IMG/VR virus record: IMGVR_UViG_3300028864_000097
Span: 1 to 24,826 of that record
From: a virus
Strand: one strand, 5' to 3'
DNA length: 24,826 bases
Of the stretch, positions 2,120 to 14,731 are shown one piece after another. Both the position numbers and the translations under genes were made by a program. The number at the start of each line of letters is the position of its first letter. The stretch's first letter is position 1. The notes under the pieces are model-generated. The model was not told where the DNA came from. It did no database searches and saw only the letters and a list, made by a program, of their open reading frames with translations.

Positions 2120-2494
2120 ATGATTGAAAACGAGATTTGGAAAGATACACCCGGGTACAGGGGAATTTATCAGGTTAGTAATTTTGGAAGGATTAAAAGT
2201 TTTAAGTGTAAAAATGAAAAAATACTTAATTGTAGTTCTGATCTGGAAGGGTATACAAAAACTACACTTACTGGTAAACATGGAACATTGAGAGTAGTAT
2301 ATATTCATCAAATAGTTGCAGAAAATTTTGTACTTAACACAAAAATAAAAAGACTAAAATTAAAAAAGCGCATGGTCGTAGATCATATTGACGGCAATAG
2401 ATCGAATAATAGGAAAGATAATTTAAGATATGTAAGTTATTCGTTTAATTTATTTCAAGGGTTTAGAAAAGATAGAGGTTTCGCATATTGTTAA
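2120..2494 (+). CDS. NUMOD4-HNH endonuclease (homing-type)
   Basis: A 124-residue protein. The N-terminus WKDTPGYRGIYQVSNFGRIK is a clear NUMOD4 DNA-binding motif, about residues 7-26. A C-terminal HNH core follows: VVDHIDGNRSNNRKDNLRYV, about residues 86-105, with the metal-site histidine in DHIDGN and the terminal asparagine in DNLRYV. Proteins of this group are usually free-standing homing endonucleases. At 124 residues it lacks extra C-terminal NUMOD or AP2 modules. It ends 11 bp before the methyltransferase start and could be a mobile insertion beside that gene or a member of the early operon. No intron is apparent nearby. Confidence 0.85.
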   Translation: MIENEIWKDTPGYRGIYQVSNFGRIKSFKCKNEKILNCSSDLEGYTKTTLTGKHGTLRVVYIHQIVAENFVLNTKIKRLKLKKRMVVDHIDGNRSNNRKDNLRYVSYSFNLFQGFRKDRGFAYC

Positions 2495-2505
2495 ATTATT
2501 ATATC

Positions 2506-3189
2506 ATGATAAAAATTAGCGATACAGAATACTTTTCAAACGATAGGAGTATTCGATTCTTACAAGGGGACTGCAATGAGTTTATGGCAGGATTGAAAGA
2601 TAATGAGTTTGATTTGAATTTGAGTGACCCACCGTACGGGATAGGAGTTACAAAAATGAATATGGGAGGAAGAAAAACCATAAAACCGAATAAAATACAA
2701 TCATGGGATAATTGGACTCCTGATTTAAGTTGGTTTAATTTGTGTAAATTAACTGCAGATAATTACATTATTTTTGGTGGTAATTATTTTGAATGGTCGA
2801 CTATTTATAATCCAAAACTTAAAAGAGTAGTTGATTTTAAAAAATACGATGGTATAATATGGGATAAAGGCGAGACTCTTTTAGGGCGTGATTTTTCAGA
2901 GGCTGAAATTGCTTTTACTAATTTGAAAAATGGAATTTATAAATTAAGTCCAAATCAATTAGATAGAATACACGTCACCCAAAAGCCCATTGATCTATAC
3001 CGTTGGATTATTCAAAACTACACCAAACCAACAGATACTATCCTCGATTGTTTTGGTGGAAGTATGTCCAACGCCATAGCTTGCCACATGGAGCGCAGAA
3101 ACTTAACCATATTGGAGTTAGATCAAGACTACTTTAAAAGTGCCTTAGAACGCTTTAGAATTTACGAAAGTCAATTAACCTTATTTTAA
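2506..3189 (+). CDS. Site-specific DNA N6-adenine/N4-cytosine methyltransferase
   Basis: Transfers a methyl group from S-adenosylmethionine to an exocyclic amino group of adenine or cytosine. The catalytic motif DPPYGIG is at residues 41-47, and the SAM-binding motif LDCFGGS at about 180-186, preceded by HVTQKPIDLYRW. The order, catalytic motif before SAM motif, fits the beta class of the N6/N4 family. I chose the ATG at 2506. An in-frame TTG at 2488 would overlap the HNH gene and add six residues of no visible value. No restriction nuclease lies next to it, so it is probably an orphan phage methylase that shields phage DNA or marks it for regulation. The target sequence cannot be read from the protein. 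Confidence 0.88.
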   Translation: MIKISDTEYFSNDRSIRFLQGDCNEFMAGLKDNEFDLNLSDPPYGIGVTKMNMGGRKTIKPNKIQSWDNWTPDLSWFNLCKLTADNYIIFGGNYFEWSTIYNPKLKRVVDFKKYDGIIWDKGETLLGRDFSEAEIAFTNLKNGIYKLSPNQLDRIHVTQKPIDLYRWIIQNYTKPTDTILDCFGGSMSNAIACHMERRNLTILELDQDYFKSALERFRIYESQLTLF

Positions 3190-3613: not shown

Positions 3614-5061
3614 TTGATGAGGTAGAAGTAGAAGTAGAAGTATTTGATTTTTCGGCACCACAGAAACAAAAACAGAATTTAAAGGAAAATACCATATTAT
3701 CAAAAGTAAATGAGTTGATGTGTTGGGATGCATACCCCGAAGAAACTCACAAAGATGTATTCATCCGAAACGGCAATAGACTAAACGATTTGCCGAGCTC
3801 TGAGATTATAGATATAGTTTATATCGGTGGGATTCACAAATGGGCTGAGAGCTTAAATGTGGGCTCACAAGAGTATCTTTATGAGTCGATAGTAACAGCG
3901 ATGCGCAAATGTATATCCGAGCCGGTTTTTTATGACAAAAAGAAAATAGATAGTTTTCCTGTTCTCTCAAACTTCTTTTATTATTGTCAACGCTTGGATC
4001 GGGCCGGAAAAATTGCAAGTGAAGCAGAATCAATAGCAGATATAAGCTGGAACGGTGTAATCTGCCGGCGCAACCTTGCTGAAAATGTGGCAAAGATATT
4101 TAAGGAAAAGCCGGATCACAAAAAATATTTAGAAGCAGTCTCAAAAATTCGTAAAATTTGGGGATTCACTGAAAAAGAGGTTGACGCACTTCGCTATTAT
4201 GTTTGTCAGGTAAGACATGATCGGCATAATCCATCGATGAACAAATGCATTTATTTGTGGAGCAAATCAAAACAGACGGGTAAAACTACAATAGCCAGGG
4301 CAATAGTTACCATCCTGAACGGGGATAAGTTTGATTATTACGGGAAATATGAAAGTACATTGAGTACTGAAATGTCATACAATGATCACGATTTACCCCT
4401 GGCAGCCCTGTACAATGCCGTTCTACTTGATGAAGCAATGCCGAAAGATACTAAAAAATCTTATGGGGCAATAAAAAGGATATTAACTTCAAGCTCCTGT
4501 AACTATAATCCAAAATTCAGACAGGTTATTAATATTAAGTGTAAACGCTTTTATTTTTTCACTTCCAATGATGATATAATTGATTTCGTGCAGGATGATA
4601 GCGAGCGCAGATTTTTTGCCATTAATATAGAAGCAAAGCCGGAACAATTAAGTTTCGATGATATTTATAGTTTATGGTTGCAATTCTGCACAAACGCAAC
4701 CCCGGAAAGTGACTGGCAAAAGTGGTACGATTCTTTTGATTTTGTTGATGGATTAGCAACCAAGGATTGCAATGAGATAAAGAACGAAATACTGCTTAAT
4801 TCAGATTCCTTATTCGGGATCGGATCGGGAACGTATACGACAGTAAAAAAAGTATCAAGTAGTCTATTCAAGAACGAACCAACCCGGGAGCAAAAAAAAT
4901 CGGTTGGAGAAGCGATGACAGAATTATTCTCAAGCTGCAGACTTGAAAGCAATAAGGCGTACTACTCAATTTCAATGTGCAGGCAAAAGGCGTCCTCCAT
5001 TGGTGAGCTTGTAGGAGAAGAAGCTCCGGAAGTTGAAAGTAAAAATCTATTTCCGTTTTAA
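3610..5061 (+). CDS. VirE/D5-like superfamily 3-type replicative helicase
   Basis: 483 residues, probably an ATP-driven DNA-unwinding protein for phage replication. A P-loop lies at SKSKQTGKT (residues 218-226) and Walker B at VLLDEA (D274, E275). A sensor-like strand FYFFTSND follows, then an arginine-finger-like SERRFF (R333-R334). This motif order is that of VirE/DUF5906/D5-type helicases found in Bacteroidetes phages and elements. The N-terminal about 200 residues show no primase motifs that I recognise, so a primase, if needed, comes from elsewhere. The gene opens with an odd run of GTAGAA hexamers encoding alternating V and E (residues 5-11). The C-terminus is acidic and ends NLFPF, resembling the SSB tail tip. 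It is coupled to the preceding gene by an ATGA overlap. Confidence 0.8.
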   Translation: MIDEVEVEVEVFDFSAPQKQKQNLKENTILSKVNELMCWDAYPEETHKDVFIRNGNRLNDLPSSEIIDIVYIGGIHKWAESLNVGSQEYLYESIVTAMRKCISEPVFYDKKKIDSFPVLSNFFYYCQRLDRAGKIASEAESIADISWNGVICRRNLAENVAKIFKEKPDHKKYLEAVSKIRKIWGFTEKEVDALRYYVCQVRHDRHNPSMNKCIYLWSKSKQTGKTTIARAIVTILNGDKFDYYGKYESTLSTEMSYNDHDLPLAALYNAVLLDEAMPKDTKKSYGAIKRILTSSSCNYNPKFRQVINIKCKRFYFFTSNDDIIDFVQDDSERRFFAINIEAKPEQLSFDDIYSLWLQFCTNATPESDWQKWYDSFDFVDGLATKDCNEIKNEILLNSDSLFGIGSGTYTTVKKVSSSLFKNEPTREQKKSVGEAMTELFSSCRLESNKAYYSISMCRQKASSIGELVGEEAPEVESKNLFPF

Positions 5062-6783: not shown

Positions 6784-6847
6784 TTGAAAATATATTTATC
6801 TTTTAACATTAAATAATTGCATATGTCATTTTGAAACTGTACTTTTA
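6784..6847 (+). promoter_or_regulatory. Early promoter B with shared upstream element
   Basis: The 24-bp element is at 6784-6807, ATTG ends at 6819, and 20 bp later TACTTTTA at 6840-6847 matches the -7 consensus except for the last base. The element-to-box distance is 56 bp, as in promoters A and C. Directly after the -7 box the sequence GTCAATAA recurs at the same position as in promoter C. The gene at 6885 begins about 30 nt beyond the predicted transcription start. Confidence 0.6.
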
Positions 6848-6884
6848 CAGGGTCAATAAGACAAACCAACTAAAACATAGTATT

Positions 6885-7073
6885 ATGAGCACATTAGTCT
6901 TTTCAACTCAAATTAATAACATTGGTATGTTTTTAATCAATTCTAAAACATCTTTTTCTTATGATAAAGAAAAGAATGTTATTATCGTAAACCATGGTAT
7001 TTCTATCGTAATGGATTTATTATTATCTTTCGGATTACGCAAAAATGATTTTTATTTAGAAAAGTTTATCTAA
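6885..7073 (+). CDS. Hypothetical early protein, 62 residues
   Basis: Not recognised. It has alternating hydrophobic and polar segments (LVFSTQINNIGMFLI and VIIVNHGISIVMDLLLSFGL) and no clear membrane span. The start is set by promoter B. The in-frame ATG-like start at 6831 lies upstream of the predicted -7 box and could not be on that transcript, whereas the ATG at 6885 sits behind an A-rich leader. It is the first gene of the second early sub-operon. Confidence 0.5.
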   Translation: MSTLVFSTQINNIGMFLINSKTSFSYDKEKNVIIVNHGISIVMDLLLSFGLRKNDFYLEKFI

Positions 7074-7086
7074 TTCTCAATAACTG

Positions 7087-7106
7087 CCCTATCGTGCTTC
7101 ACGGGG
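7087..7106 (+). other. Bulged GC-rich hairpin in a non-coding gap
   Basis: CCC (7087-7089) and CGTG (7093-7096) can pair with CACG (7100-7103) and GGG (7104-7106), leaving a TAT bulge and a CTT loop. It lies between the genes at 7073 and 7125 and is followed by A-rich rather than T-rich sequence, so it is not a plus-strand terminator. It may be an RNA structure near the next start codon or a chance fold. Confidence 0.25.
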
Positions 7107-7124
7107 ATTAAAAAAAATAAAGTT

Positions 7125-7308
7125 ATGTACTCAATAACGGCGTCAGAAAAAAAAAGAAGCTAAACGCAACTCAAGAATTTTTTATGAATATCGTTGCAGC
7201 TATTGTAAACAACCATTATTAGATGGAGAGTATAAAATACATGATGATTGTAAAATTAGAGAACAAGAAGAATACGACTTTTACAACAAAGAGCAAGAAC
7301 CATGTTAA
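7125..7308 (+). pseudogene. Frameshifted small zinc-finger-like protein
   Basis: An ATG at 7125 opens a frame that closes after 12 codons. The next frame (+1) is open from just before the A9 run at 7147-7155 to a TAA at 7306-7308. It encodes RCSYCKQPL and KIHDDCK, a Cx2C with a later HxxxC or C pair suggestive of a small zinc finger. Removing one A from the run joins both parts into a 60-residue protein. The downstream tiny gene starts inside its last codons, as expected if the restored frame is real. The break may be a sequencing error in a homopolymer, a genuine mutation, or a slippage-dependent gene. Confidence 0.55.
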
Positions 7309-7385
7309 TGTTATCGATAATCACATACTCACTATTCACAATCTTCTGTGTGATAGCCGTTAAATCAGATTCTAAAATCAATTAA
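7302..7385 (+). CDS. 27-residue hydrophobic membrane peptide (tentative)
   Basis: Found by direct translation. The ATG at 7302 overlaps the stop region of the frameshifted gene. The product is almost entirely hydrophobic (LSIITYSLFTIFCVIAV, residues 4-20), with a short polar end SDSKIN. It would form one membrane span. The overlap and the absence of another use for this stretch favour a real gene, but the size makes chance a serious alternative. Function unknown. Confidence 0.4.
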   Translation: MLMLSIITYSLFTIFCVIAVKSDSKIN

Positions 7386-7415
7386 CAAATACTAATCATT
7401 AAAAAATCAAATCCT

Positions 7416-7706
7416 ATGACATCAACTATCTATGTTATTGCTACCGTTTTACTTGTCGTGTGTTTTTTAATCATTGAAAAATCGTTATCCAGGGAGTCAA
7501 AAGCCCGCATTGTAAAACTTGAAAAAGAAATCAACCTGCGTGATCAAATGATTATTGCAAGGGATTTAACGATTAAAGGCTTAAAATCCGAAATTAAAAA
7601 TCATGTAGATCTAAATGTACTTCTTTCAAATTCAAATGTAAATTTGAAATCCAAACTCCACCGAAATCGAAACGCAAATGGAACTTTTGTAAAATCCGAA
7701 AAGTAA
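7416..7706 (+). CDS. Membrane-anchored coiled-coil protein
   Basis: 96 residues. An N-terminal hydrophobic segment [15 protein letters not shown] (residues 6-20) acts as a membrane anchor. It is followed by a heptad-like, charged helix (residues 25-80) and a short tail [13 protein letters not shown]. The layout of anchor, coiled coil and basic tail resembles small phage membrane proteins of unknown role. It follows the putative 27-residue peptide by 30 bp. Confidence 0.65.
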
Positions 7707-7732
7707 ATCAAACCAACAATAAACCAACAAAA

Positions 7733-8476
7733 ATGGAAACAAAAATTAAAATTAAATCAATTTTCGGATCATTACTTTTTGAATTAGAATGTGAAAATAA
7801 TTCTATTAAAAATACAATAGCAGAAGCAAATAATAGAAGTGCCAACCTAAGCGGTGCCAACCTGAGCGATGCCGACCTGAGCGGTGCCGACCTGAGAAGT
7901 GCCGACCTGAGCGGTGCCGACCTGAGCGGTGCCGACCTGAGAAGTGCCAACCTGAGAAGTGCCGACCTGAGCAGTGCCGACCTGAGAAGTGCCAACCTGA
8001 GAAGTGCCAACCTGAGCGATGCCGACCTGAGCGGTGCCGACCTGAGAAGTGCCGACCTGAGCGGTGCCGACCTGAGCGGTGCCGACCTGAGAAGTGCCAA
8101 CCTGAGAAGTGCCAACCTGAGAAGTGCCAACCACAATGAAAATACCGGATTTTTACTATCGCAGTGCCCAGACGGTGCATTTGTAGCGTACAAGAAAGCG
8201 CAAGGCAAGATCGTAAAAATTGAAGTTTGTGAGGATGCTAAACGAAGTTCTGCCACATCTTTAAAGTGCCGATGCTCAAAAGCGAAATGTTTAGAAATTC
8301 AAAATATTGATGGGTTAATTTCTGAATTAAAAGAAATTAGAAGCGATAATGATTCAAAATTTATTTACAAAGTTGGAGAAACCAACGAGATATTGGATTT
8401 TGATGAAGAAAGATTTAATGAGTGTTCGACAGGTATACATTTCTTTATCCGCAGAGAAATGGCAGTAAAATATTGA
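7733..8476 (+). CDS. Pentapeptide-repeat protein with DUF5758-like C-terminal domain
   Basis: 247 residues. Residues 37 to about 131 are 19 consecutive A(D/N)LxX pentapeptides with SG, RS, SD or SS in the last positions, which predicts a right-handed quadrilateral beta-helix. The C-terminal part has [20 protein letters not shown] then [23 protein letters not shown] and [11 protein letters not shown]. These match the DUF5758 domain that commonly follows pentapeptide repeats. Some pentapeptide proteins mimic DNA and bind gyrase. Whether this one does is not shown by the sequence. The repeat section is markedly richer in G and C than the rest of the window. Large minus-strand frames across the repeats are artefacts of the 15-bp periodicity. 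Confidence 0.9.
7854..8113 (+). repeat. 110-bp duplication inside the 15-bp pentapeptide repeat array
   Basis: Bases 7854-7963 and 8004-8113 are identical over 110 bp, at an offset of exactly 150 bp (ten pentapeptides). They lie within an array of about nineteen 15-bp units of the GCCGACCTGAGCGGT type spanning 7841-8125. Perfect identity, including synonymous positions, indicates a recent duplication or gene-conversion event that kept the reading frame. Confidence 0.85.
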
Positions 8477-8502: not shown

Positions 8503-10470
8503 ATGAAACTTCAAATCAACAAATTTAAACGACACGAAAATTTAACAGTGTCAATTCCTGCGAGAATATCAGGCGGTAATGAGCTTGGAAAATCAACAAT
8601 ACTTGAAGCAATAGGCTTCGTTCTAACAGGAAAAGATCTGTCAGGAAATGAATTTAAACAAGTATACGACAACCGTGTTGACATTCACGATGCAATTGCT
8701 GACGTGTCATATTTCGACAACTACGGAAACGAATACCATAGAATCGTACAGCCAGTATTTCAAACCGGCAGAGATGGAGTTGAAAGCATAAAGATTAAGT
8801 GTTCTACTGTATGCAAAAAAAATTCAATTCCCTGCAATGATTTTGCAGACGAATTCAAAGACTTTCAAAAATTCGGAACGGATTATTTCTTTGCTCCTAA
8901 AAAAGATTTAGAAATCGTCCAACGTTCAATCTTCATCGATATTTTAAAAAGTAAACTTCCGGACTACGATGTAAATTCTGCATCCCTGAAACTGAAAGAA
9001 CTTAAGAAAGCTCAGAAAATTGAGGTCGACCTGGTAAAGGGCTTACAGGATGCCAACAAGAATACAAAGGATGTGCCGGTGCCCGAATTTCCAAAGGATA
9101 TTTTGGCGATGAATGCTGAATATATTGCTTTATCCGCTTCGACAAATTCGGATGCCATTGCTGAAATTAACAAAAAAAATAATGAGGCGATGGGAGATTA
9201 TTATACCGAAAAAGGTAAGATCTCTACCGCCATCTCAGACACTGAAATTAAAATTGGAAGGCTTAAAAGTTCAATTGAAACCGAAAAAGAGCTTTTAGAG
9301 AGCGTAAAAAAGTCGGTATTTGCTCCGAAGGTTATTGAGCCTACGGAAAGACTCGAATCCGATGTAGATGTTCTTAAATCAGCATTAGAAAAGTCAGAAT
9401 ATTTTGAAAGTGTTGAAAAGTATGCAGAAAAGTACTTTGGAAATAACCCGGTTCTTGTTGAAAATGCTGCAAAAATAAAGGAAATTTCGGAACGGGTGTT
9501 TATTCCATCGGGTGAGATATCATCAAATTGCCCGCTAAATAATGAAAATTGCCCGGCTGCAAAATTGCATTCTGAAACTGCTGAAAAAATTAAATTTGAG
9601 GCAATGAACAATGCTATAATTGCCACATCAAGGACTCAAAATCGCACTATTCTCGAAAAAGAAATGTCCGCTATCAATTCAGAATATAGCGCTGTTAAAT
9701 CCGACTTGCAAGAAGCCGAAAGAAAGTTAAGCCGGGTGATTGAATCAAATAAATTGGTCGATGACGAAAATGAAACCAGGTTAAGAATAAAGAAAAAAAG
9801 AGATGCTGAGTTGATAGAAATATACAATTTGAATATCTCTCAATTTGAATCTGAACTCCATACAATAACAAAAGAATTGTGGAAAAAACAAACTGAACTC
9901 GCAAACCTTATCGACCCAACTCCCGAAAAACTCCCCGAATCAGTCGAAATTTCGGAAGAATTTAAGGATGCTCACGCAGCATACGAGCTATTGAAGATTG
10001 ACATCAACAAGGCTGTTGGCGTTAATGAGAATAATATCAAATTAATCGTTGAACGTTCATCCGAAATCAAAGAAAAACAAGCCAACCTACTTGAAATAAT
10101 TGAAAAAATAACAATCCTAACCACCGAAATATCAGATTATTTCAGTAACTTAGCAACTATTGTTAAACAGGAATTTGCAGGAGGTATTGCGTTGGATGTC
10201 GAATTGTTGGAGTACGTAATGAGTCGGGATGAATACAAAGATTGCTTTAAAATTACGGCAAACGGAAAAGTATTCCCTTATGAATGTAACGGGGCTTTGC
10301 AGAATAACGTTAAAATGCAAGTGTTATTTAATTTGCAACGCTTGAAAGGTTATACGGGCGTTACGGTAATGGACAATTGCGAGGCAAATACGACCCAACC
10401 AATCAATACTTTAGGTTTGAATTGCATATTGGCTTTTGCGACTAATGATAATGAATTAACAATTAAATAA
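8503..10470 (+). CDS. Rad50/SbcC-like AAA ATPase (phage recombination ATPase)
   Basis: 655 residues with the split-ATPase plan of SMC/Rad50 proteins. The N-terminal Walker A is GGNELGKST (24-32), followed by long charged coiled-coil sections (about 150-270 and 355-540). The C-terminal lobe has NGALQNNVKMQVLFNLQRL, a signature-like helix, then Walker B VTVMDNCEAN, which resembles the hhhhDNAE version of phage homologues. At the middle of the coiled coil are C343 and C350 in NCPLNNENCP, which could be a variant zinc hook, although Rad50 normally has CxxC. It probably assists end processing or recombination with RecT, 340 bp downstream. No partner Mre11/SbcD nuclease was found in the window. Confidence 0.8.
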   Translation: MKLQINKFKRHENLTVSIPARISGGNELGKSTILEAIGFVLTGKDLSGNEFKQVYDNRVDIHDAIADVSYFDNYGNEYHRIVQPVFQTGRDGVESIKIKCSTVCKKNSIPCNDFADEFKDFQKFGTDYFFAPKKDLEIVQRSIFIDILKSKLPDYDVNSASLKLKELKKAQKIEVDLVKGLQDANKNTKDVPVPEFPKDILAMNAEYIALSASTNSDAIAEINKKNNEAMGDYYTEKGKISTAISDTEIKIGRLKSSIETEKELLESVKKSVFAPKVIEPTERLESDVDVLKSALEKSEYFESVEKYAEKYFGNNPVLVENAAKIKEISERVFIPSGEISSNCPLNNENCPAAKLHSETAEKIKFEAMNNAIIATSRTQNRTILEKEMSAINSEYSAVKSDLQEAERKLSRVIESNKLVDDENETRLRIKKKRDAELIEIYNLNISQFESELHTITKELWKKQTELANLIDPTPEKLPESVEISEEFKDAHAAYELLKIDINKAVGVNENNIKLIVERSSEIKEKQANLLEIIEKITILTTEISDYFSNLATIVKQEFAGGIALDVELLEYVMSRDEYKDCFKITANGKVFPYECNGALQNNVKMQVLFNLQRLKGYTGVTVMDNCEANTTQPINTLGLNCILAFATNDNELTIK

Positions 10471-10809: not shown

Positions 10810-11721
10810 ATGAGTACAGAACAATCAACAGCGCTTGAATTGCAAGACAATTTTAAACAGATGTCCGAAATGCACCTGACAATGAGAGGATCAAATAACC
10901 CTGAGTTCAAAATCCAGTTCATGAAAACTTTCTCCGACCTTATTTTCTCACAGAGTGATGAAATGCTGGAAAAGTTGAGTAAAACAAAACCCGCATCTTT
11001 GATGAATGCAGTTTTCCGGGCAACCGAATCTGGTGCATCATTCGCTAAAAAAGAAATTTCCTTTATTCCCTTTGAAATTTTCAAGAAAGAAAAAAAGAAC
11101 GGCGCAGACGTAAAAACAGCTACCGGGGAATACGAAGCCCTCGTTATTTTCGACATCAATTTTCAGAAACAACAAATACTTAAGCTCTCAAACTGTAAAC
11201 GCTTTTACACCTGTGAAATTCACGAAGGAGTCCAGGTAATTAGCGATATGACTACCGGCAATTACTCTTTTGATGGAAAGAACGATGTATTTAAACCGAC
11301 AGTTGGTTATTATGGTGTTTTCGTGACCACTGAAGACCAGATTTATGACATCTTTATGTCTTGTGCCGAAATTGTAGATCGTGCCAAATTTAGCCCTGGA
11401 TTCAAGGCGGACAACTACAAAAAAACAAACAACTCAATTCACTTTGAAAAGATTGTTGTCCGTAATTTAATGAAGATTATTCCACGCCCATCGGAAGAAT
11501 TAAAGTCTATCCTGGCATACGATGAAAGTTCTGAATACACACATTACGAAGACGTAACGAATGACGGCAAAGCGCTGGAGGAAGCAAAGAAAGAGCTATC
11601 TGGAAAAAAGGAACCGGTAAAGCCTGCCGAAAAATCGACTACGAAAGTTGAGAAAGAAGCGGAAGCTACTCCGACCGAGCCAGCAGAATCAAAACCATCA
11701 GAAATTCAATCATTCTTCTGA
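10810..11721 (+). CDS. recT: RecT-family single-strand annealing recombinase
   Basis: 303 residues. It anneals complementary single strands during phage replication and recombination. RecT-like features are SLMNAVFRATESGASFAKKE followed by ISFIPF (about residues 63-88), a central beta section, then CAEIVDRAKFSPGFKADN and IVVRNLMKIIPRPSEELKS near residues 190-237. These correspond to the conserved core and the late KxxxRxLxKxxP-like helix of the family. The last about 50 residues form a lysine- and glutamate-rich linker ending EIQSFF, probably disordered. Its stop overlaps the start of the MBL-fold gene by one base (TGATG at 11719-11723). Confidence 0.82.
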   Translation: MSTEQSTALELQDNFKQMSEMHLTMRGSNNPEFKIQFMKTFSDLIFSQSDEMLEKLSKTKPASLMNAVFRATESGASFAKKEISFIPFEIFKKEKKNGADVKTATGEYEALVIFDINFQKQQILKLSNCKRFYTCEIHEGVQVISDMTTGNYSFDGKNDVFKPTVGYYGVFVTTEDQIYDIFMSCAEIVDRAKFSPGFKADNYKKTNNSIHFEKIVVRNLMKIIPRPSEELKSILAYDESSEYTHYEDVTNDGKALEEAKKELSGKKEPVKPAEKSTTKVEKEAEATPTEPAESKPSEIQSFF

Positions 11722-12404
11722 TGAAAATCAATGTAATCGCAACAGGTAGCGCAGGGAATCTTTACGAGTTAATCGACAAGGATGGAAATTCGATGTTGAT
11801 AGAAGCTGGTATGCCACGTGCTACTTATGTAAAATTTCGGGTGGGGGTAACTCCGCCTGAAATGTGCATAATTTCGCACTCTCACATGGATCATGCAAAA
11901 TACAAGGGTGAATTTATGGCTGTGATGCCTGTTTATTTGGCGCAGGAAAAGAACGTTAGTGAACATTTTAAAGTTTTCGGACTCCCATTGAATCATGGAG
12001 ATGTTACCACGATGACTTTTTTAATACATTCGTTGGTAGAAAGTAAATTTCTATATTTTGCGACCGATGTACAGTTTGACAATTTAACCGAAGATGTTTG
12101 TAGTGATTTAAAACACTTTGGAGTCGAAAACTTCCTAATCGAATGCAACTACAATGACTATCTTTTTCATCTTGCCACCGACGAACAGCGACAAGGGTGT
12201 TCAAGGCATTTATCCGATAACGATGTTATCAATTTTATCCGAAAATCAGGAGCTAAAAACCCAAAAATTATCACAATTCACGGGTCGAATAGATTAAGCG
12301 CAGATACTTACACAAAAAAGTATTTAAGCTCAAAGTTAATCACCTCAACTGTCAATGTGGCGGTAGGGGTCAAAGGAGGACAAAAAAATATATTTATAAT
12401 TTAA
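11721..12404 (+). CDS. Metallo-beta-lactamase-fold hydrolase
   Basis: 227 residues. The diagnostic metal-binding motif HSHMDH is at residues 53-58. Other family marks follow: TGSAGNLYEL at the N-terminus, LNHGD, FATD, IECNY and ITIHGSN, which supply the later metal ligands. The fold is used by hydrolases including nucleases of the SNM1 and RNase J type, but those carry a beta-CASP insert that is not evident in this short version. Tight coupling to RecT (one-base overlap) and no other exonuclease nearby make a DNA-end processing role plausible. A phosphodiesterase or other small-substrate role is the alternative. Confidence 0.82.
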   Translation: MKINVIATGSAGNLYELIDKDGNSMLIEAGMPRATYVKFRVGVTPPEMCIISHSHMDHAKYKGEFMAVMPVYLAQEKNVSEHFKVFGLPLNHGDVTTMTFLIHSLVESKFLYFATDVQFDNLTEDVCSDLKHFGVENFLIECNYNDYLFHLATDEQRQGCSRHLSDNDVINFIRKSGAKNPKIITIHGSNRLSADTYTKKYLSSKLITSTVNVAVGVKGGQKNIFII

Positions 12405-14314: not shown

Positions 14315-14731
14315 ATGAATAAAACACTGAACGAAATATCAGAAGAGATTTACGAAGCAAATAAATTAAAAGGATTTGACGTAAAGGAGTGTAATATTGG
14401 ACAGACGCTTATGCTTATAGTTTCTGAGCTATCAGAAGCTTTAGAAGCCGACAGAAAGAATAAAAGAGTAAATATAAACGACACTAAGAATTTGACAAAT
14501 GACTATACTATTAGCGGTAATCTGAGTGGCTTTACAAAACAAGGTAAAACCGAAAAGTTTATTGATCTTTTCAAAGAGCAAGTAAAAGACACTTTTGAAG
14601 ATGAAATTGCTGATTCTTTTATTCTCCTTTTCAACTTAGTCGGTGCTTTAAATATAAATATTGACAGACACATTGAGTTAAAAAGACAATTCAATGCTAC
14701 TCGAGAGTATAGACACGGAAAAAGATATTAA
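14315..14731 (+). CDS. MazG-like nucleotide pyrophosphohydrolase
   Basis: 138 residues. The all-alpha NTP pyrophosphohydrolase pattern is visible: an ExxE helix in SELSEALEADR (about residues 32-42) and a second helix with FEDEIADSFI (about 93-102) that provides the E and D metal ligands. The C-terminus REYRHGKRY is typical of phage members. Between the helices is an approximately 45-residue insert. The enzyme would cleave (d)NTPs to monophosphates and could adjust nucleotide pools or remove modified nucleotides. It is the last rightward gene, 2 bp before the start of the terminator stem's A-tract. Confidence 0.8.
   Translation: MNKTLNEISEEIYEANKLKGFDVKECNIGQTLMLIVSELSEALEADRKNKRVNINDTKNLTNDYTISGNLSGFTKQGKTEKFIDLFKEQVKDTFEDEIADSFILLFNLVGALNINIDRHIELKRQFNATREYRHGKRY

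Follow-up and report, generated by a model that had tools for sequence, protein, structure and literature searches.

A metallo-beta-lactamase-fold protein coupled to RecT and a Rad50-like ATPase in phages: a proposed nuclease partner

Introduction

The RecE/RecT, lambda Exo/Beta, and YqaJ/YqaK systems are each formed by an annealing protein and a coupled gene, are located in the phage replication region, and have a single partner per locus. RecE, lambda Exo, and YqaJ share one activity, that of a 5'-3' exonuclease on double-stranded DNA (dsDNA). In SbcCD/Mre11-Rad50, a Rad50-type ATPase with a CPxC zinc hook is encoded in an operon with a two-metal hydrolase-fold protein, and it is Mre11/SbcD that usually serves an ATPase of this type.

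Proteins with the metallo-beta-lactamase (MBL) fold are functionally diverse. One of them, YycJ/WalJ, which has a reported role in mismatch repair in Bacillus, has been described as a 5'-3' dsDNA exonuclease (PMC4801191, which cites Yang 2013), and walJ has been tabulated as an MBL 5'-3' exonuclease (PMC9836290). In the prophages of the Bacillales, recT has been reported beside a lactamase B2 gene at loci that lack an exonuclease, an arrangement that was taken to reflect the spread of lactamases (PMC8093625, 2021).

The present analysis is concerned with a 24.8 kb fragment of a virus record (referred to here as the window, that is, the whole stretch of DNA analysed), in which an earlier note had pointed to an MBL-fold gene at the place where the exonuclease partner of RecT would be expected. 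This gene is the third member of a recurrent phage module, composed of a Rad50-like ATPase, a RecT-like annealing protein, and the MBL protein. The module resembles the classical two-gene systems in the features listed above, and differs from them in that the partner has the MBL fold, follows recT, and is accompanied by the ATPase. The MBL protein probably resects DNA ends, acting as the nuclease partner of RecT together with the Rad50-like ATPase.

The Locus and the MBL Domain

The four open reading frames (ORFs) of the module region all lie on the plus strand (Table 1). The base 11721 is common to the stop codon of recT (TGA, 11719-11721) and the ATG of the MBL gene, which confirms the one-base overlap described in the earlier note. 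Small ORFs also occupy the slot between the ATPase and RecT in some of the relatives.

Table 1. Features of the module region, with coordinates in the window.
Feature	Coordinates	Strand	Details
Rad50/SbcC-like ATPase, 655 aa	8503..10470	+	phrog_77 SbcC-like, E 3.1e-7; Rad50 profile and fold matches
Walker A motif GGNELGKS, ATPase residues 24-31	8572..8595	+	motif scan
Variant zinc hook CPLNNENC, ATPase residues 343-350	9529..9552	+	relatives mostly CPxC
Small ORF, 98 aa	10479..10775	+	no family match in Pfam or PHROG
RecT-family annealing protein, 303 aa, C-terminus SEIQSFF	10810..11721	+	PF03837, E 1.1e-8; tail read in row L003
RecT C-terminal tip, last 7 codons, aromatic end	11698..11718	+	88/97 non-redundant pre-MBL annealing proteins end in F, Y, or W
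MBL-fold YycJ-like protein, proposed RecT nuclease partner	11721..12404	+	227 aa, ATG start
HSHMDH metal motif, MBL residues 53-58 (H53, H55, D57, H58)	11877..11894	+	invariant in 52 aligned members

The note had also recognised an MBL fold with an HSHMDH motif in a protein of about 225 residues that seemed to be without a beta-CASP insert, and the AlphaFold2 model (pLDDT 91.5) agrees with this description. The model comprises a single MBL domain of 227 residues, in which the metal residues are kept and the inserted beta-CASP domain, which was looked for, is absent. A beta-CASP nuclease of the SNM1, RNase J, or CPSF73 type was rejected on these grounds. The missing insert is no reason for doubt, given that YycJ is also a single-domain protein of similar size.

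In PHROG, the window MBL matched phrog_392, "metal-dependent hydrolase" (E 5.3e-26). On its own, it had no match in Pfam or NCBIfam; the Pfam model Lactamase_B_2 was matched by 49 of the 52 members of the MBL alignment. The nearest solved folds to the model are 1zkp, YhfI, RNase Z, and others, with Z values so close together that the fold cannot decide the function. The structural comparison proposed in the earlier note thus sets the protein apart from the beta-CASP group, and leaves the choice of function to other evidence. As the best fold matches include both RNase Z and YhfI, which prefers cAMP/cGMP (PMC9117128), and given the functional diversity of the MBL proteins, the fold alone does not choose DNA. 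Searched by sequence on its own, the window MBL matched no solved structure, and the family profile recovered only MBL-superfamily matches, mostly partial, with YycJ not being named among the solved-structure matches listed.

The ATPase-RecT-MBL Module in Phages and Bacteria

The module was observed in phages of the Bacteroidota, Bacillota, Thermotogota, and Gammaproteobacteria, with the order ATPase, RecT, MBL being found in phage regions of Cellulophaga, Porphyromonas, Stenotrophomonas, Aeribacillus, Marinitoga, Bacteroides, and Psychrobacillus. Relatives of the MBL protein were recovered by protein search from 90 named-phage records, 56 of them from Staphylococcus, and two scans of viral contigs yielded 5 and 77 loci. 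Synteny was counted at those loci, 73 in all from viral contigs, named phages, and the window, in which the MBL gene is preceded by 4 kb of DNA or more; near-copies were included. The ATPase lies upstream of the MBL in 72 of these loci, a protein matching the RecT HMM in 66, and the gap to the MBL gene is 10 nt or less in 62. The recurrence of the gene order and the narrow gaps indicate an adjacency beyond chance, and a fortuitous pairing of recT with the MBL gene was rejected. The system is not the "unusual" one that the earlier note had supposed, as the module is widespread in phages, and the adjacency without an exonuclease in the Bacillales was already in print (PMC8093625).

Four of the RecT slots without a match to the RecT HMM also hold recognisable annealing proteins: those of L019, L047, and L055 match the RecT-like phrog_2185 (E 1e-129 or better), and that of L035 is a PF03837 RecT (E 3.4e-40). 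The RecT-slot proteins of L019, L022, L047, L055, and L056 are RecT-like, mostly of about 380 residues, and have the same aromatic tip at the C-terminus; those of L019, L022, and L047 had no match in Pfam. A Leuconostoc phage has a solitary MBL relative, with neither RecT nor the ATPase, which counts against the reading of the MBL protein as a nuclease partner.

A scan of bacterial genomes found 80 MBL loci, divided into two blocks at a boundary set by the author of the analysis from the identity ranking. In the higher-identity block (L094-L134), which is prophage-like, the ATPase is present at 33 and RecT at 24 of the 34 loci with enough upstream DNA. In the lower-identity block (L135-L173, 26-32% identical), taken as cellular copies, the ATPase was found at 0 and RecT at 0 of 31 loci.

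In the Staphylococcus phage PVL (L010, 1125-4699), two ORFs, orf 41 and orf 42, share the ATPase between them, and orf 44 is annotated from 4214, which omits the HxHxDH part, although its reading frame is uninterrupted from a TTG codon at 3998 onwards. In L088, RecT and the MBL gene are separated by a transposase-like ORF (6833-7972), judged by eye to be of the TnpB type. In Porphyromonas phage005b (L009, 4001-4744), the protein is annotated as an anti-Pycsar nuclease, yet is part of an ATPase-RecT-MBL module, and its name may mislead.

The Rad50-Like ATPase

The ATPase fits the Rad50/SbcC plan, with a split ABC head containing the Walker A motif, a coiled coil, and a zinc hook in the middle. 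Against solved structures, the family profile matched Rad50 (3aux) first, at E 2e-14, and the Rad50 zinc hook (1l8d) at E 1.1e-6. The fold of the model, which has a moderate pLDDT of 76.5, matches Rad50/SMC heads. A mid-protein C[PA]xC hook is present in 99 of 110 full-length ATPases, and the window protein and its close relatives have a C-P-x5-C hook rather than CPxC.

A metallophosphatase (Mre11-type) domain was found in 3 of 50 MBL-holding records, in all cases kilobases from RecT and in none beside the module. Given this scarcity, the MBL protein stands out as the candidate for the nuclease that the Rad50-like ATPase lacks. The arrangement differs from SbcCD/Mre11-Rad50 in that the candidate nuclease has the MBL rather than the calcineurin fold, the ATPase has only about 655 aa, and the complex is a proposed one.

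The Rad50-type hook and head suggest a division of labour like that of SbcCD, and Mre11-type phosphatase domains were not found in 47 of the 50 records, both of which are consistent with the MBL protein being a structure-specific endonuclease, that is, a flap or end-cleaning enzyme working with the ATPase, and not a processive exonuclease. The nearest relative with a reported activity is a 5'-3' dsDNA exonuclease, however, and this alternative is considered rather unlikely.

Proposed Replacement of the Usual RecT Exonucleases

The survey of the 50 MBL-holding records covered 42 viral records and 8 named phages, with short contigs and near-copies being left out, and included L003, in which the MBL protein is identical to that of the window, and the relative L007. 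RecT is present in 45 of the 50 records, and domain searches found YqaJ, DUF3799, and PDDEXK_1 in 0/50, 0/50, and 0/50, respectively. The three models do work, as they were positive in 2, 1, and 12 of 14 known genomes used as controls. The earlier note had recognised no exonuclease beside recT, and this extends to the related records, with the window being a fragment whose missing part could hold one.

Two hundred Bacilli genomes, a sample chosen independently of the MBL, included 42 with RecT, in which 59 matches were reduced to 57 RecT loci by merging the split ones. Partners were counted within 5 kb of RecT, with the exonuclease class being YqaJ or DUF3799. An exonuclease only is present at 33 of these loci, the MBL only at 9, both at none, and neither at 15 (Fisher p 1.5e-4, shared ancestry ignored), which provides the frequency of recT-MBL pairs without an exonuclease that the earlier note had proposed surveying. 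The 15 loci with neither partner indicate that RecT is not strictly dependent on a neighbouring nuclease. A scan for the Rac RecT of E. coli returned 80 near-identical loci, which were not counted.

The sequence around 52 of the 57 RecT loci was retrieved (the other five being two each from G043 and G085, and one from G212), as was that around an MBL locus at which no RecT was recognised (L373). The ATPase HMM matched at none of the 33 exonuclease loci, at all 7 of the MBL loci fetched whole, and at 1 of the 12 fetched loci with neither partner (L383); it also matched C-terminal pieces at both G043 loci. At L383, a divergent Rad50-like ATPase lies beside RecT, and neither an MBL nor a known exonuclease is present in the region.

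The superfamily name of the MBL protein recalls a drug-resistance lactamase spread by phages, which is how PMC8093625 reads the recT-lactamase B2 pair. The tight overlap with recT, the mutual exclusion with YqaJ/DUF3799, and the sequence kinship to YycJ all argue against this reading, which is almost certainly wrong, and a true beta-lactamase was rejected. The recT-lactamase B2 pair of the Bacillales prophages, including its missing exonuclease, is very probably the Bacillota part of the present module, to which the other phyla and the ties to the ATPase and YycJ are added here.

Kinship to YycJ/WalJ

In each of the eight genomes searched with the phage MBL profile (8/8), one chromosomal MBL matched over its full length, with E values of 4e-27 to 6e-34, and the remaining non-prophage matches were partial, at E 3e-11 or weaker. 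The best-matching MBL of Bacillus spizizenii adjoins YycI (5.8e-60) and YycH (1.8e-80), neighbours that identify it as YycJ/WalJ. The best explanation is that the phage MBL belongs to a YycJ/WalJ-like branch of the MBL phosphodiesterases; YycJ/WalJ is the nearest cellular relative of the phage profile.

For the alignments, the truncated L057 and L063 were excluded from the 77 viral loci, and the rest were thinned to 49 at 80% identity. Residues H53, H55, D57, H58, H92, D116, and H187 are invariant in 52 phage rows and 8 YycJ rows, and, by homology, H92, D116, and H187 are further metal ligands; H163 is conserved in the family. The window MBL has all of the signature columns S10, G12, N13, E141, N143, H163, and S189, a signature derived from this alignment rather than from a published definition. 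Phage MBL and YycJ have in common a single MBL domain, HxHxDH, an S-x-G-N start, E-x-N, the late conserved H163, and H-x-S; both of the other MBLs in the alignment lack S10, G12, and N143. The phage protein differs from YycJ in being phage-borne, in its coupling to an annealing protein and a Rad50-like ATPase, in its separate branch, in its size (about 225-250 aa, compared with 264 aa in B. spizizenii), and in having S or G, rather than N, at position 193.

The window MBL shares 20-28% identity with the remaining phage rows, and forms a very long branch (3.07) with L004 and L005. The closeness to YycJ holds for the phage profile; the window MBL has an uncertain position in the tree. At four Bacilli loci (L366-L369), the MBL falls on the YycJ side of the tree, with a support of 100/100 for the four together, and of 95/89 for the branch that unites them with YycJ and the cellular sequences, to the exclusion of the main phage clade. 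These MBLs also sit after RecT and a divergent, shorter ATPase, in what looks like a second recruitment of a YycJ-side MBL, or an exchange.

The anti-Pycsar phosphodiesterase Apyc1 is also a phage MBL of the same fold class, and the window protein could be an Apyc1-like cyclic-nucleotide phosphodiesterase, a counter-defence enzyme degrading Pycsar signals, whose association with recT is incidental. The fold matches include the structure of Apyc1 (7u2s, E 3.9e-8), a homologue in Porphyromonas phage005 is annotated as Apyc1-like (PMC10367356), and the Apyc1 Pfam model was weakly matched by 18 of the 52 members, with a best E value of 2.3e-4. The members remain below the cut-off of this model, 50 bits, and the window MBL did not match it; the YycJ of B. 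spizizenii also touches it, at 17.6 bits. The gene neighbourhood differs from that given for SBSphiJ in PMC9117128. There would be little reason for an anti-defence gene to exclude YqaJ, or to accompany a single ATPase-annealer pair in several phyla, and the phage profile prefers YycJ over the other MBLs of the same genomes. An Apyc1-like function, kept as an alternative mainly on account of the name of the Porphyromonas homologue, is quite unlikely, and was rejected as the first choice, with the evidence favouring a recombination nuclease.

The Aromatic Tip of the Annealing Protein

Among the proteins that precede the MBL gene, 88 of 97 that are non-redundant at 80% identity end in F, Y, or W, with 71/78 at the RecT-HMM loci and 17/19 for the other pre-MBL annealing proteins. 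In this count, L088 was scored as non-aromatic because the transposase-like ORF was picked; the actual RecT ends in SPSY. The tip is often GPGF or similar, following an acidic or Gln-rich stretch. An aromatic end is present in 2/33 of the RecTs beside YqaJ/DUF3799 (tails not thinned by identity), in 1/13 of a Listeria A118-type RecT set, and in 5/12 of the RecTs with neither partner. Such an end is seen in no more than 2/7 of the MBL-linked RecTs of the unbiased Bacilli sample, which counts against a role for the tip, and the tip is absent from the divergent L366-L369 (0/4), so that it is not universal.

The possibility that the tip is merely the Shine-Dalgarno (SD) sequence of the MBL gene was rejected. 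In 48 tails of the GPx[FW] type, all four Gly codons and all four Pro codons are used, and TTT and TTC occur equally; no SD-like 4-mer was found upstream of the MBL gene in 82 of 110 loci; and F or Y is still the last residue in 5/7 of the RecTs separated from that gene by more than 15 nt. The free variation of synonymous codons, and the persistence of the tip where the genes are apart, indicate a feature of the protein.

The tip resembles that of single-stranded DNA-binding protein (SSB), the C-terminus of which has the form DDIPF, and is a possible docking motif. The SbcC of B. subtilis is among the proteins that need the C-terminus of SSB for their localisation (PMC3000357), which makes the ATPase one candidate receptor of the tip. 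The MBL protein is another candidate.

Proposed Function and Implications

In the proposed mechanism, the Rad50-like ATPase would bind DNA ends, the MBL protein would resect them, most likely by a 5'-3' exonuclease action on dsDNA, and the exposed 3' strand would then be taken over and annealed by RecT. The MBL protein would thus do the job performed elsewhere by lambda Exo, RecE, or YqaJ, and would take the place of Mre11/SbcD beside the ATPase. The suggestion in the earlier note of an MBL standing in for the exonuclease, together with a Rad50-like ATPase, is strengthened by the synteny, the complementary distribution, and the kinship to YycJ, from which we infer the nuclease activity itself and its polarity.

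A broader reading, which is tentative, envisages a further type of resection machine, in which a YycJ-type MBL nuclease replaces Mre11 beside a zinc-hooked Rad50-like ATPase and is tied physically to the annealing protein through the conserved SSB-like aromatic tip, so that resection and annealing would take place in one complex. On this reading, YycJ-type MBLs would have entered a module of this kind on two or more occasions.

Literature listings on recT with MBL, SbcC, or YqaJ yielded no paper whose title or abstract names an MBL as the nuclease of RecT. MBL neighbours of recT may already have been listed by Iyer in 2002, which could then have priority for the recT-MBL observation. Within the reach of these searches, the new elements are the link to YycJ, the occurrence of the three-gene module in several phyla, the exclusion of the exonucleases, the Rad50 hook, and the tip. 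The proposal provides a testable function for a large phage family, phrog_392, now annotated as a lactamase, a hydrolase, or an anti-Pycsar nuclease, and would explain how RecT phages without YqaJ or RecE could make 3' single strands. If true, it would offer three-gene recombineering sets for the Bacillota and Bacteroidota, and an example of an MBL enzyme in the role of Mre11.

Other ORFs of the window include a pentapeptide-repeat protein with DUF5758 (7733-8476), directly upstream of the ATPase, and, at 2120-3189, ORFs for an HNH endonuclease and then for a DNA methyltransferase, the latter spanning only part of the family profile. A pyrophosphatase-like protein (phrog_9236, E 2.9e-29) is encoded at 14315-14731.
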